This document shows positions 18,984 through 28,025 of a DNA stretch of 54,706 bases, piece by piece. Within the stretch, counting starts at the first letter, position 1. Each line of letters opens with the position of its first letter. The DNA comes from Bacteroidota bacterium (lineage in GTDB: Bacteria > Bacteroidota > Bacteroidia > JABEUT01): positions 1 to 54,706 of the forward strand of contig JABDAL010000008.1 in the NCBI GenBank assembly GCA_013289165.1. The letters run 5' to 3'. The notes under the pieces are model-generated. The model searched no databases, was not told the DNA's origin, and saw only the letters and a list, made by a program, of their open reading frames with translations. The position numbers and the translations under genes were made by a program.

Positions 18984-19017
18984 ACCGGGTAGAATTTGAA
19001 TTCTTGGGGAATCTCAA

Positions 19018-19530
19018 TTATTTTTTATGAGCTACTTTTAACAGGGCTTCATGAAGTTTTTTTTCATCCCCTTGCAAATAAGAATTATGAACATATACAA
19101 TTTTGCCGCTCCCATCTATAATAAAGGTGCAGGGGCAGTTAATAACCTCCATAGCATGTTGAAAATCCTGGTTAGGGTCAATATATACCTCGTACTCCCA
19201 GCCTCTTTCCTTAATAAAAGACTGGACCTTTGCCATGGTACGGGCATCATCAGTCGCAATAGCAATAAGTTTAACGCCTGTTTCTTTTTGCCAATCCGCA
19301 TATTCATCATTAATAGCATCCAGCTCAGCAATGCAGGGTTTGCACCAGGTGGCCCAAAAATCAATGATAATAGGTTTTCCGTTATTGGAGAAAGAAGAAG
19401 TATTGAAGTTAGCTCCGTCCAGTGTTTTTATTTGGGTGGATGGAACTTTAGAATTTAAAAGAGTTTGTGCAAACGTTGAGGTAGATATTGAAAGCAGAGT
19501 AATAAGTGCAGGGATAAATAATTTTTTCAT
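19018..19530 (-). CDS. TlpA-like periplasmic thiol-disulfide oxidoreductase
   Basis: 170 residues with signal peptide (MKKLFIPALITLLSISTSTF) and a thioredoxin fold containing the active site WATWCKPC and the cis-Pro region INCPCTFIIDG. Belongs to the TlpA/ResA group of exported reductases. The start at 19530 is chosen because a promoter box covers 19555-19562, overlapping a longer frame that starts at 19557 and would put a non-signal sequence in front. It leads the group of exported proteins to its left (DUF6029, Omp28), 34 bases upstream of the DUF6029 gene, and may reduce cysteines of these CxxC-containing surface proteins (inference). Confidence 0.88.
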   Translation of the reverse strand: MKKLFIPALITLLSISTSTFAQTLLNSKVPSTQIKTLDGANFNTSSFSNNGKPIIIDFWATWCKPCIAELDAINDEYADWQKETGVKLIAIATDDARTMAKVQSFIKERGWEYEVYIDPNQDFQHAMEVINCPCTFIIDGSGKIVYVHNSYLQGDEKKLHEALLKVAHKK

Positions 19531-24420: not shown

Positions 24421-24984
24421 TCAAATAATATTATTCGCCTTTTTGTTCAGTTGCATCATATAATTATGCGTAGTACCGACAACAAAGTCGAGCTTTTTGC
24501 TTTCATCTGCCTCTATCATGACGTCGTAAAAGTCTGTATATTTTTCCATATACCGTCCTACTTTGCATTTTGCCTTAGACATGGAGCTTATAAACATGAT
24601 GGGTAATTGTGTAGGTATGCCGAAATCAAATAAAATATCAAACTCATCATTCACAAAGCTATTAATAAATTGTGAAGATGGCTTGCCATACCAGTTTAAT
24701 TCTTTCCTGGCAAAGTATTGATGCATCATCGAGCCATTGAGTCCTAAAGGGAGTTCTTTTACGCGCATAAATCCCAACGACTTTACTTGTTTCCCAATGT
24801 TTCGGAGGCTTTGAATATAGCTTCTCATCAATTCTACATCATCGGGATTGTCACCACAATAAAGTATCCCAATAGTATTAGCACTATCAATGTTGAGTAT
24901 TGTTCTTGTACGGGTATAACCGGCGTGTTGCTTCCTAAGCAAGTATTCGCCTACTCTATTACGTATGTTTTGAAAATATGCCAA
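24421..24984 (-). CDS. DUF6913 family protein
   Basis: 187 residues, cytosolic. The pattern IGILYCGDNPDDVELMRSYI ... GFMRVKELPLGLNGSMMHQY ... FDILFDFGIPTQLPIMFISS is that of the DUF6913 family, widespread in Bacteroidota and of unknown function. No ATG precedes the conserved part: the first usable codon is TTG at 24984 and the frame stays open back to about 25038, so a non-ATG start is likely. First gene of a probable operon with the acidic protein and queE. Confidence 0.72.
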   Translation of the reverse strand: MAYFQNIRNRVGEYLLRKQHAGYTRTRTILNIDSANTIGILYCGDNPDDVELMRSYIQSLRNIGKQVKSLGFMRVKELPLGLNGSMMHQYFARKELNWYGKPSSQFINSFVNDEFDILFDFGIPTQLPIMFISSMSKAKCKVGRYMEKYTDFYDVMIEADESKKLDFVVGTTHNYMMQLNKKANNII

Positions 24985-25167
24985 GTTCTTAAAGTTTCGC
25001 CTTGCGATTTTTAGCTGAAAAAGTGCAAGGTAAGAAACTTATAAAACATATTTTTTGTTATCCTTTTGTTACTAAGGATAAGCAGGCTTAAAAAACATAT
25101 AAAATAAAATCAGTAAACAGGTAATGTTAAATTTTATAAAAATTTAACCCTCGTATTGAAAATGCAG

Positions 25168-25175
25168 TATATTTG
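25168..25175 (+). promoter_or_regulatory. -7 promoter box (TATATTTG) for the candidate ncRNA
   Basis: Exact TAnnTTTG match. It ends 7 bases before the 5' strand of the closing helix of the RNA structure, so a transcript would start right at the fold. The -33 region is weak (TTTA at 25143-25146, 21-base spacer). Confidence 0.6.
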
Positions 25176-25179
25176 CAGT

Positions 25180-25310
25180 TGCTTCCTTTAACGAGGAGGG
25201 TGAGCCGGGAGGAACTTGTTTCCTCCCGCCATCCTCTGTTACCTCTGTTCACGACCTGTTATGTGTGTAATTTGCGAACGAGGTTTCCCCTATAAAAAGT
25301 TAAAGGAACA
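25180..25310 (+). ncRNA. Candidate structured non-coding RNA (three-way junction, ~130 nt)
   Basis: The 378-base gap between the DUF6913 gene and the 55-codon ORF holds no long reading frame but folds well. A perfect 10-pair closing helix joins 25183-25192 with 25299-25308. Inside, hairpin 1 pairs 25193-25201 with 25228-25236 (one mismatch) and continues as an 8-pair GC-rich stem 25207-25214/25220-25227 with a 5-base loop. Hairpin 2 pairs 25241-25250 with 25276-25284 (one bulge) around a 25-base loop. A -7 promoter box ends 7 bases before the first helix. No strong terminator follows; only a weak AAGG/CCTT hairpin with TTTT near 25340. It could be a 6S-like RNA (a 6S-Flavo family exists in this phylum) or something new. 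It is not SRP RNA, tmRNA or RNase P RNA by motif. A minus-strand transcript cannot be excluded. Confidence 0.55.
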
Positions 25311-25362: not shown

Positions 25363-25530
25363 CTAAATAGTCGGTGATGCTTTTCCAGGAGAAGCAAATA
25401 CTGCAAATGGATTAAATACCCATACTTCTGTATTGTATCTGGTGGAATATTTCTTTTTAAAGAAAAGCGAAAGAAAACTTGCACTTTTTTTGCCTTGATT
25501 TTTAGAGAAACTTACTACTGTGTTCTTCAT
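25363..25530 (-). CDS. Possible small protein (55 residues) behind the oxoamine synthase fusion
   Basis: An ATG-initiated 55-codon frame starts 32 bases after the stop codon of the large synthase gene, on the same strand. The product is basic in its first half (KNQGKKSA, FFKKKYSTRYN) and aromatic/hydrophobic in the second (EVWVFNPFAVFASPGK), without a signal peptide. Codon use looks like the neighbours. It has no recognisable domain. Alternatives: chance frame, or a peptide whose product is modified or used by the neighbouring enzyme (inference). Confidence 0.45.
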   Translation of the reverse strand: MKNTVVSFSKNQGKKSASFLSLFFKKKYSTRYNTEVWVFNPFAVFASPGKASPTI

Positions 25531-25562: not shown

Positions 25563-28025
25563 TCATCGATTGATTTCTTGCATTTGCATAGCGCTCATAG
25601 ACTCAATCACTTCTAAGGAATAATTATCCTTGGCTTGCATATAGCCTACAGATTCAATTAAAGTGGCTCCTACTTTCCTCTTTTCGAAGGAAGCAGAATA
25701 CCCTAAGTGAACAAGTTCTTTATCTAATTCCTTTGCACGCATTAACGCTTGAAACATAGCTTGCCTATATGGTTTATATTCTTCCTGGAAAGTATACTCT
25801 ATACCAACCATCATATAGTTGTATACCTTTTCTGTAAGAAAACTGAACATGGCGGCAATAGGCTTTCTTTCAGAGCGGCTATCGAACTCAGGTTTTAAGG
25901 TAAGGGTCAGTATTTCCCAGTTTTGATTTTGAACCATATTCTCAAACATGTTATATGGGAGTGTAAAAGTGTTTAGCTCAAGGCTTTTATTTTTTACATT
26001 CATATATAATTGATAGAGGTGTTGGGTCTCTTCCGGAGTTGGGTTTTTACAAATACTTAACTCAAATTTATCTTCATGGTGCAAAACATCTTGTCTTATA
26101 TGTTTCTGCATCCTTTTTGATAAAGTTGACATAAATTCTGCTCGATTGCCCCATTTAGATATTTCTACAGTATGGTTCTTAGGCATATTAATTTTAAAAT
26201 ACCCATTTTCCATCATAAAGCCATCCACATCCTCATCGCCTTGCGGAAGATCTCTCAGCATAGTCGAACTAGTATGGTATTCCTCCTGAAGGGCAGTGAT
26301 TTTCTTTAATAAGATATCCAGTGCATCCCTCCACAAAGCGGAAGAACGGTCAAGATAAAGATGGTTACCTCCTGTTACCGTAGAGCCGGTAGTTAGGACC
26401 TTTGAAACTAAATAATATGGGTCGCCCGCTTTACGTTTCAACTCAATTTGGGAGGAAATGCTTTCCGGTGCAAGCATATCATCTTTCCACATAGAAGTGG
26501 TTAAAAATGTTGCTAAAACAGGATTTTGGAGAGCATCTTTAATTATGATATAATCAAAATTCCAGTTGTCCTCCTCCTTTTCGTTCGCTGTGAATGATTT
26601 CTCAAGAAATTTCATTCCTTCCCAATTGTAAGAGCCTCTTTGTCCTAAAAGCTGATCCCACAATTGCTTATCAACTTGCGCAATAGATTTACAATGAATA
26701 ACTTCAAAATTTGTCTCTGTTATTTCAGCCGGGGCTAATTCTGCAGGCTTTTCTACTTTGGCAGGATTCATTTTGAATGCCTTATAGATTTGCTCAATAG
26801 TGAAATCTTCTTCTATCAGCACTTCCTTCAGGTTCTTAGAAAGGGCTTGAATCATCCTTTCAATCTCTTTGAAACTTTGATTCCTGGTAATAGTAAACCT
26901 TACCCCGGTATTTTTCATGGGAACTGCCGAGAAAATACCAAGATTAAGGAAGAACCCATCATTAATCATCCTGCTTATCATTTTGTACCCAATCTTAGGT
27001 AAGCTGACACCGATGAAGAATACAGGAGAATCAGATTCAGATATTAGGGGCAATTCGTATTTTTTTATCAACGAGTTAGCATGTTTTATGCTTGCATGCA
27101 GCTGCTCCTGAAAAAGATTAATTTCCTCAGAAAGGTGAATTTTAGCACATGCAATAGCAGCACCTAATTGCGAAGGCTGCATAGGCCCGGAGAAAATCAT
27201 TGGACCTCCGCATGTTCTGAACCTTCTTGCCATTTCCTCGTTTGGGAATATAAGAGCACCCCCGCCAGTAGCAAAGGCTTTGGCAAATGAGGTGGCAACT
27301 ATCATTCTTTCATGTATGGCTTTTTTGCCTAATACATATCCTCTTCCATTTTTACCAAAAGAGCTCATGCCATGGGCATCATCTACATAAAAATGGAACT
27401 CAGGATATTTCTCCAGTAATTCATAAATTTTTTCTACTGGGGTGGCATCTCCAAACATGGAATAAATGCCATCTGCCATATACCATACTTTCTTATAGGT
27501 TTGGCGCAACAGTTTTATTCGTTCTTCGAGCAAATCCATACGGTTATGGCGAACCAGTTCTGTATGAATCCCTTTCGATTTAATAAGGTTTACTGCAGTT
27601 TGCACTGAGTGATGTACCTGGTGATCAAGGATAACAGCGTCATTACTACCAACAAATAAAGGTATGGCTCCTATATGGCCTAAGGTAGTGGTTGGTGTAA
27701 CTACTGCATGGGCCTCAAATATCCTGGAAAGCAGAGCCTCAAGCTCTTTATAATACTTTGCCGATATATAGGTTCTGGAGCAGGAAAATTGGGTTCCATA
27801 ACAGTCAATGGCATCTTTTGCGGCTTGTTTCAGCCTGTTATCAAACTCCAGTCCTAGATAACTACAGGAACCGAAATTAATAACTTCCTTATTTATTTCC
27901 CCGTTCAGGAAAATTTTGCTTCCATTGAGTTTGAAATTGCCTGTGTTTAAGTGGAATACACCCTTTTTTGCTCCATAAGTAGCAATTTCGTCAATGGTCT
28001 CAATCATAGAAATAGTTTCTTTCAT
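25563..28025 (-). CDS. Alpha-oxoamine synthase fused to a GNAT/FemAB-like acyltransferase domain
   Basis: 820 residues in two parts. Residues about 35-410 form a PLP-dependent alpha-oxoamine synthase (relatives: serine palmitoyltransferase, KBL, BioF, CqsA): NFGSCSYLGLE, the DDAHG motif near 215-220, and SFAKAF with the PLP-binding Lys249. These enzymes condense an acyl thioester with an amino acid and release CO2. Residues about 430-820 look like a GNAT or FemAB-type N-acyltransferase (KRMQKHIRQDV, PIAAMFSFL, GVEYTF-like core and HLGYSASFEKRKVGATL). A fused acyltransferase could N-acylate the amine made by the first domain, as in ceramide-like or sulfonolipid formation (inference). Fusions of this size occur in Bacteroidota, but substrates are not known to me. 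Divergent from a two-component system; promoter box at 28078-28085. Confidence 0.85.
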   Translation of the reverse strand: MKETISMIETIDEIATYGAKKGVFHLNTGNFKLNGSKIFLNGEINKEVINFGSCSYLGLEFDNRLKQAAKDAIDCYGTQFSCSRTYISAKYYKELEALLSRIFEAHAVVTPTTTLGHIGAIPLFVGSNDAVILDHQVHHSVQTAVNLIKSKGIHTELVRHNRMDLLEERIKLLRQTYKKVWYMADGIYSMFGDATPVEKIYELLEKYPEFHFYVDDAHGMSSFGKNGRGYVLGKKAIHERMIVATSFAKAFATGGGALIFPNEEMARRFRTCGGPMIFSGPMQPSQLGAAIACAKIHLSEEINLFQEQLHASIKHANSLIKKYELPLISESDSPVFFIGVSLPKIGYKMISRMINDGFFLNLGIFSAVPMKNTGVRFTITRNQSFKEIERMIQALSKNLKEVLIEEDFTIEQIYKAFKMNPAKVEKPAELAPAEITETNFEVIHCKSIAQVDKQLWDQLLGQRGSYNWEGMKFLEKSFTANEKEEDNWNFDYIIIKDALQNPVLATFLTTSMWKDDMLAPESISSQIELKRKAGDPYYLVSKVLTTGSTVTGGNHLYLDRSSALWRDALDILLKKITALQEEYHTSSTMLRDLPQGDEDVDGFMMENGYFKINMPKNHTVEISKWGNRAEFMSTLSKRMQKHIRQDVLHHEDKFELSICKNPTPEETQHLYQLYMNVKNKSLELNTFTLPYNMFENMVQNQNWEILTLTLKPEFDSRSERKPIAAMFSFLTEKVYNYMMVGIEYTFQEEYKPYRQAMFQALMRAKELDKELVHLGYSASFEKRKVGATLIESVGYMQAKDNYSLEVIESMSAMQMQEINR

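Follow-up and report, generated by a model that had tools for sequence, protein, structure and literature searches.

A putative multicopy small RNA family with an invariant 5' segment, restricted to one clade of uncultured Bacteroidota

The intergenic element described here is probably one copy of a previously undescribed, clade-restricted small RNA (sRNA) family, as judged from its sequence and that of its relatives. It lies in the window, by which we mean the whole stretch of DNA that was analysed (54,706 nt, contig JABDAL010000008.1 of a Bacteroidota bacterium). Eight copies were detected in total, namely the window copy, one in the sister species G005 and six in the sister species G002. 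Three species thus carry the family, with many copies in G002 only. The best explanation, and in our view a likely one, was found to be a clade-specific, multicopy, trans-acting (sibling) sRNA with a build like that of FopS and GibS.

The element is located in the gap between two minus-strand genes, a divergent DUF6913 gene on the left and a convergent gene for an 820-aa protein on the right. The features are, in window coordinates:

24421-24984, minus strand: DUF6913 gene, divergent, the syntenic anchor common to G005 and G002
25154-25160, plus strand: putative upstream element TATTGAA, roughly 26-27 nt ahead of the RNA start, from an alignment of seven promoters
25168-25175, plus strand: Bacteroidota-type -7 box TATATTTG, recognised by its sequence, with a similar box in the other aligned copies
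25181-25196, plus strand: invariant 5' segment GCTTCCTTTAACGAGG, of which 25181-25194 is the proposed single-stranded seed
25195-25237, plus strand: hairpin 1, the conserved family hairpin, from folds and covariation; T-tract absent here
25241-25284, plus strand: hairpin 2, three orthologs only, from ortholog identity
25299-25308, plus strand: GTTAAAGGAA, 3' arm of the closing helix and possible seed-masking element, complement of 25183-25192
25563-28025, minus strand: gene for the 820-aa protein, Aminotran_1_2 domain, convergent, with a response-regulator gene instead in G005 and G002

The sequence from the RNA to the 820-aa gene contains a putative open frame of 55 aa (MKNTVVSFSKNQGKK..., 25363-25530, minus strand), which is convergent with the RNA. 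The 820-aa protein has its aminotransferase I/II domain at the N terminus and a long C-terminal part without Pfam match, and is possibly a fusion enzyme.

Direct reading confirmed the -7 box at 25168-25175, as well as the ten-pair helix of the original prediction, in which TTCCTTTAAC (25183-25192) is perfectly complementary to the 3' arm at 25299-25308. The two predicted hairpins were also found in place, the GC-rich one at about 25193/25195-25236/25237 and the bulged one at 25241-25284, closed by ACCTC/GAGGT. The amount of pairing was beyond chance, as had been claimed: the plus strand (133 nt) folded at -52.3 kcal/mol, compared to a mean of -31.5 kcal/mol for shuffled sequences (z -6.1, 0 of 200 shuffles). 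The minus strand of the element folded well too (z -5.1), so fold energy alone cannot assign the strand. The plus strand is favoured because of the promoter position and the G-U pairs in the family alignment, where G-U on the plus strand in 18 cells corresponds to an A-C mismatch on the minus strand and the reverse applies to one cell.

When 60 related genomes were searched at the DNA level, strong matches came from G005 and G002, two sister species within the genus, and all three ortholog copies adjoin the same DUF6913 gene. Identity between the orthologs was 91-96% over positions +1 to +57 and 75-88% in hairpin 2, as compared to 47-58% in the flanking DNA. The convergent neighbour is a response-regulator gene in G005 and G002 and the 820-aa gene in the window; as the neighbour varies while the RNA stays, the RNA and not the convergent gene is the conserved unit. 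Next to the DUF6913 orthologs of G006, G008 and G010, which are more distant members of the genus, the element was absent from the adjoining sequence, and model searches of these genomes did not find it either. The relatives' MAGs KR3_bin-0479 and AM_bin-3948, both recorded as 'uncultured Bacteroidetes bacterium', are presumably of freshwater origin. The predicted non-coding RNA with a promoter at its 5' end is supported by these comparisons, as a probable stand-alone RNA on the plus strand that is kept in relatives.

G002 has five more copies besides its ortholog, at dispersed sites, and two of these are divergent. The sequence GCTTCCTTTAACGAG was found exactly at seven loci, directly after a TAnnTTT-like -7 box. 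The first 15 nt were identical at seven loci and the eighth (C77) had one base deleted, and a start sequence of about 14 letters was nearly identical across all copies. Six loci belong to G002 (five with the exact 15-mer, plus the divergent C77) and one each to G005 and to the window genome G000, whose copy number is a lower bound because the genome is only about 70% complete. A sequence-only model (R1), built on a 48-nt stretch from the seven loci and searched against 11 genomes of the genus, recovered exactly its seven source loci with E values of 9e-13 to 2e-8, the next match having E 0.01. The structured model of the family (R2) added C77 weakly (E 0.009). Inspection by eye made C77 the eighth copy, a divergent one that lacks one base in the 5' end and shares the hairpin apex. 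About 85-125 nt downstream at C77 (L134 401-560) there is a very strong hairpin, GGCAGGCAGAAATTTATTTCTGTCTGCTGCTTTTTTTT, which is terminator-like. At C81 the 5' end is kept, without a clear copy of the hairpin.

The 16-mer GCTTCCTTTAACGAGG was present in 3 of 395 genomes of the class, all of this genus. An exact-pattern scan of the genome collection gave true copies only in KR3_bin-0479 and AM_bin-3948, with seven other records being about the number expected by chance, and searches of plasmids, phages and viral contigs gave no match. Two further model matches were rejected. One was a class-wide match in G316, antisense inside a metH-like gene. The other, a weak R2 match at window positions 19004-19067, is on the opposite strand from the coding end of a thioredoxin-like gene, and G002 has one like it. 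The family is absent from Rfam and was not found in the literature searched, and the suggested new RNA class holds in the sense of a new family.

In the aligned copies a TAnnTTT-like -7 box stands just before GCTTCC, being weakest in C81. Alignment of seven promoters identified TATTGAA in three copies, and in two others a form of it that differs by one or two bases; a standard TTTG/TTG -33 box at the usual spacing of 19-21 nt was seen in none. The probable transcription start is at about 25180-25183, and the 5' segment was unpaired in the short-form folds. A Bacteroidota -7 promoter belonging to each copy would drive plus-strand transcription, with the first base at GCUUCCUUUAACGA or no more than 1-2 bases from it. 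In the transcript, about 14 nt of invariant, unpaired 5' sequence would come before a stable hairpin.

A hairpin was found to follow the 5' end in seven copies. Across six copies 92% of the cells of hairpin 1 were paired, with 98% in the basal helix, and the sequence varies. Five pairs showed changes on both sides. The covariation was 0.42 compared to 0.30 in shuffles, and none of 500 shuffles reached the score. Sliding the partners of hairpin 1 lowered every measure but one: the count of doubly changed pairs was equalled in one slide. Comparison of the copies shows that hairpin 1 has been under pair-preserving change on the plus strand.

The hairpin is followed by a T-tract in C60 (9 T), C11 (4 T) and C16 (7 T), resembling an intrinsic terminator. 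Because of this T-tract these three copies probably give short transcripts, which would terminate at about 55-65 nt. The window copy and both orthologs have no T-tract after hairpin 1, and around the window copy a terminator was looked for and not found. As the T-tract is absent and a second hairpin is present, these copies probably give a longer RNA. Hairpin 2 occurs in the three orthologs only; it lacks covariation support, because its outer 5 bp are invariant and two of the inner pairs do not form in G005. About ten short hairpins, CCAACCTTACGGGGTTGG or CTAACCTTACGGGGTTAG, were observed in one intergenic gap of G005 (G005:C71, about 15.9-16.4 kb; L172 ~2440-2900). Many of them are followed by TCTTTTT, and they resemble an array of terminator-type repeats.

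The original prediction had drawn one closed unit of three helices. Hairpin 1 of that unit covaries family-wide and is conserved in relatives, but hairpin 2 is restricted to orthologs and the closing helix was not upheld. The latter was tested copy by copy by comparing duplex energy with shuffles, in the window copy within +60 to +170. The p value was 0.002 for the window copy, which had been picked for its closing helix, 0.005 for C16 and 0.035 for G005, where the helix is imperfect. Five copies (the G002 ortholog, C60, C11, C81 and C77) were at chance level, with p values of 0.13-0.90. A hand-made Fisher combination of the seven non-discovery copies gave p of about 0.05. Only the window copy has a perfect closing helix, and a strong one recurs in the non-orthologous C16 alone; in these shuffle tests the helix was not upheld as a family feature.

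We therefore regard as unlikely that the family is a compact multi-branched RNA, closed by a helix between its 5' and 3' parts into a three-way junction and binding, for example, RNA polymerase like 6S, or a ligand. The perfect helix and the strong fold of the window copy, the comparable complement in C16, the imperfect one in G005 and the minimum-energy fold of C77, which also closes the 5' with the 3' part, are consistent with such an RNA. However, besides the chance-level copies, the 3' arm lies beyond the terminator-like hairpin in C60 and C16, C11 is without any 3' arm, and Rfam gave no match, including 6S and 6S-Flavo.

In C16 (L142, around G002:C16 14040-14060, minus strand) a near-perfect complement of the 5' end, GTTAAAGGGATGC, is found about 130-150 nt after the RNA start. 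It sits beyond two further hairpins and is a possible anti-seed. If the long RNA folds as drawn, the 10-bp helix of the window copy would mask the seed. It is conceivable, though quite improbable, that the long-form copies carry an anti-seed (25299-25308 in the window, about +135 in C16) that masks the seed; the RNA would then alternate between a short, terminated form, in which the seed is free, and one made by read-through, which silences itself. With such a switch, if true, an sRNA would be controlled at the point of transcription termination.

6S RNA, with 6S-Flavo (Rfam RF01685), is a structured intergenic RNA of Bacteroidota with its own promoter. It is one long rod with a central bubble, whereas the family here is multicopy with a free 5' segment and a terminator-type hairpin. 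A rod with a large central bubble was not seen in the folds, which showed a free 5' end or a two-hairpin multibranch. The Rfam scan proposed in the original prediction was run on the whole window and gave no match at the gathering level, including 6S; in the element region nothing beyond chance was found at E <= 10, and 6S and 6S-Flavo did not match even at that level. A search of the genus with RF01685 gave no match, and control genomes were equally without match, so absence is not proven by this search. The family is not 6S RNA, and the 6S-like part of the prediction was not supported.

It is very unlikely that the copies derive from a REP/MITE-like repeat or a non-autonomous mobile one, in which GCTTCCTTTAAC...GTTAAAGGAAGC would be the terminal inverted repeats. 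The copies are dispersed in G002, and the window copy and C16 have 5'/3' complementarity. Yet a MITE would have both termini conserved and inverted together with target-site duplications, and here the left end alone is invariant, the right end is different or missing, and no target-site duplication was seen in the window and G005 copies inspected. In addition, the promoter lies outside the would-be repeat yet within the conserved unit, the same site is occupied in three sister species, and the hairpins vary in sequence and keep their pairing, which is unexpected for neutral repeats.

The prediction had also named a minus-strand leader as a possible better explanation, and that the element is the 5' leader of the DUF6913 gene (start 24984, some 200 nt further along the minus strand) is highly improbable: the minus strand folds well and the gene is the anchor in all three species, but the family recurs at loci without a DUF6913 gene, the DUF6913 orthologs of G006, G008 and G010 are without the element, the promoter, invariant 5' end and T-tracts are all on the plus strand, and the 18 G-U cells become mismatches on the minus strand.

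The build proposed for the multicopy trans-acting sRNA was compared with known systems. FopS of Bacteroides thetaiotaomicron is a paralogous sRNA family with 12-15 copies per genome, in which a conserved R1 seed in the single-stranded 5' end is followed by a terminator hairpin; it is bound by RbpB and represses mRNAs by pairing at the start codon (PMC11697453). Like FopS, the family here has several copies with their own housekeeping-type promoters, a proposed 5' seed with a terminator-type hairpin, divergent downstream sequence and a distribution in one lineage. Six paralogous loci share the 5' end in G002, and a housekeeping-type promoter, although without the standard -33 box, was found just upstream in the aligned copies. 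The terminator-type hairpin is clear in C60, C11 and C16, while no T-tract follows the hairpin in the window copy and its orthologs. Unlike FopS, there are 1-6 copies per genome compared to 12-15, and the window ortholog has an extra second hairpin. RRM-domain RNA-binding proteins of the RbpB class are encoded in the same genomes, two in each of the three, and RbpB-type binding is a candidate here. The family was not assigned to FopS, as there was no gathering-level Rfam match and only chance matches to miRNA, snoRNA and sRNA families at E <= 10; this separation is by Rfam scan, and the presence of FopS in the Rfam copy searched rests on the statement in the paper that its structure was deposited there (PMC11697453).

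GibS, also of Bacteroides thetaiotaomicron, is intergenic, about 145 nt long, and represses through its conserved 5' seed, which is single-stranded and pairs across start codons, its targets including the adjacent operon (PMC7366714). Unlike the family here it is largely unstructured, and the Rfam scan detected no relation between them. Like LhrC, Qrr and OmrA/B, the copies are paralogous sRNAs scattered in one genome with presumed shared targets. A CU-rich antisense segment is a feature of LhrC that the family here would share. The three groups, named as multicopy sRNAs (LhrC1-7, Qrr, OmrA/B; PMC11697453), differ from it in phylum and sequence, and some of them are Hfq-linked.

Because the build matches that of FopS and resembles that of GibS, GCUUCCUUUAACGA is a putative antisense seed. 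This CU-rich 5' segment may pair with AG-rich, UUAAAGGAAGC-like sequence around start codons, and the pairing would block ribosome entry, as has been demonstrated for GibS and FopS of Bacteroides. The sequences show the shared promoter, the invariant 5' end and the pair-preserving change of the hairpin on the plus strand; the transcription of the copies, their exact ends, the seed function and the targets are what we infer.

Candidate targets are BON-domain genes, in which codons 3-6 could pair with the 5' end. In the BON genes beside C60 and C81 of G002, 11 of 12 bases are complementary to the seed at codons 3-6. These two genes ranked first and second (-17.4 and -17.2 kcal/mol) among 150 translation starts from stretches not chosen for a seed match, the rest being at -12.3 kcal/mol or weaker. 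A BON gene of G005 has AAGGAAGC at the same place, with an 8-bp match (-12.8 kcal/mol) and no adjoining RNA copy. The match is a lead and not a proof, because the three genes are homologous and it was found post hoc. That GibS targets its adjacent operon sets a precedent for the targeting of neighbouring BON genes. BON genes are directly convergent with two RNA copies, with three in a row at C81 (L139) and one at C60 (L138), and two of the genes at C81/C60 start with MN-x-KGS, the codons of which are complementary to the seed. Genome-wide, seed complements with one mismatch numbered 20, 36 and 27 as compared to 22, 27 and 28 in the reversed control, and the former counts include the family's own copies, without which there was no enrichment. 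Start-codon-linked seed complements were not enriched in the three RNA-carrying species in comparison to genus members without the RNA.

The multicopy trans-acting sRNAs described in Bacteroidota are mainly from gut Bacteroides. If an unrelated family with this build exists in uncultured freshwater Bacteroidota, paralogous sRNAs with a 5' seed may be a recurrent solution in the phylum. The window locus would illustrate the gain of additional 3' structure by such RNAs while the seed stays fixed, and the BON-domain genes, together with the clear 5' seed, offer a concrete and testable target.
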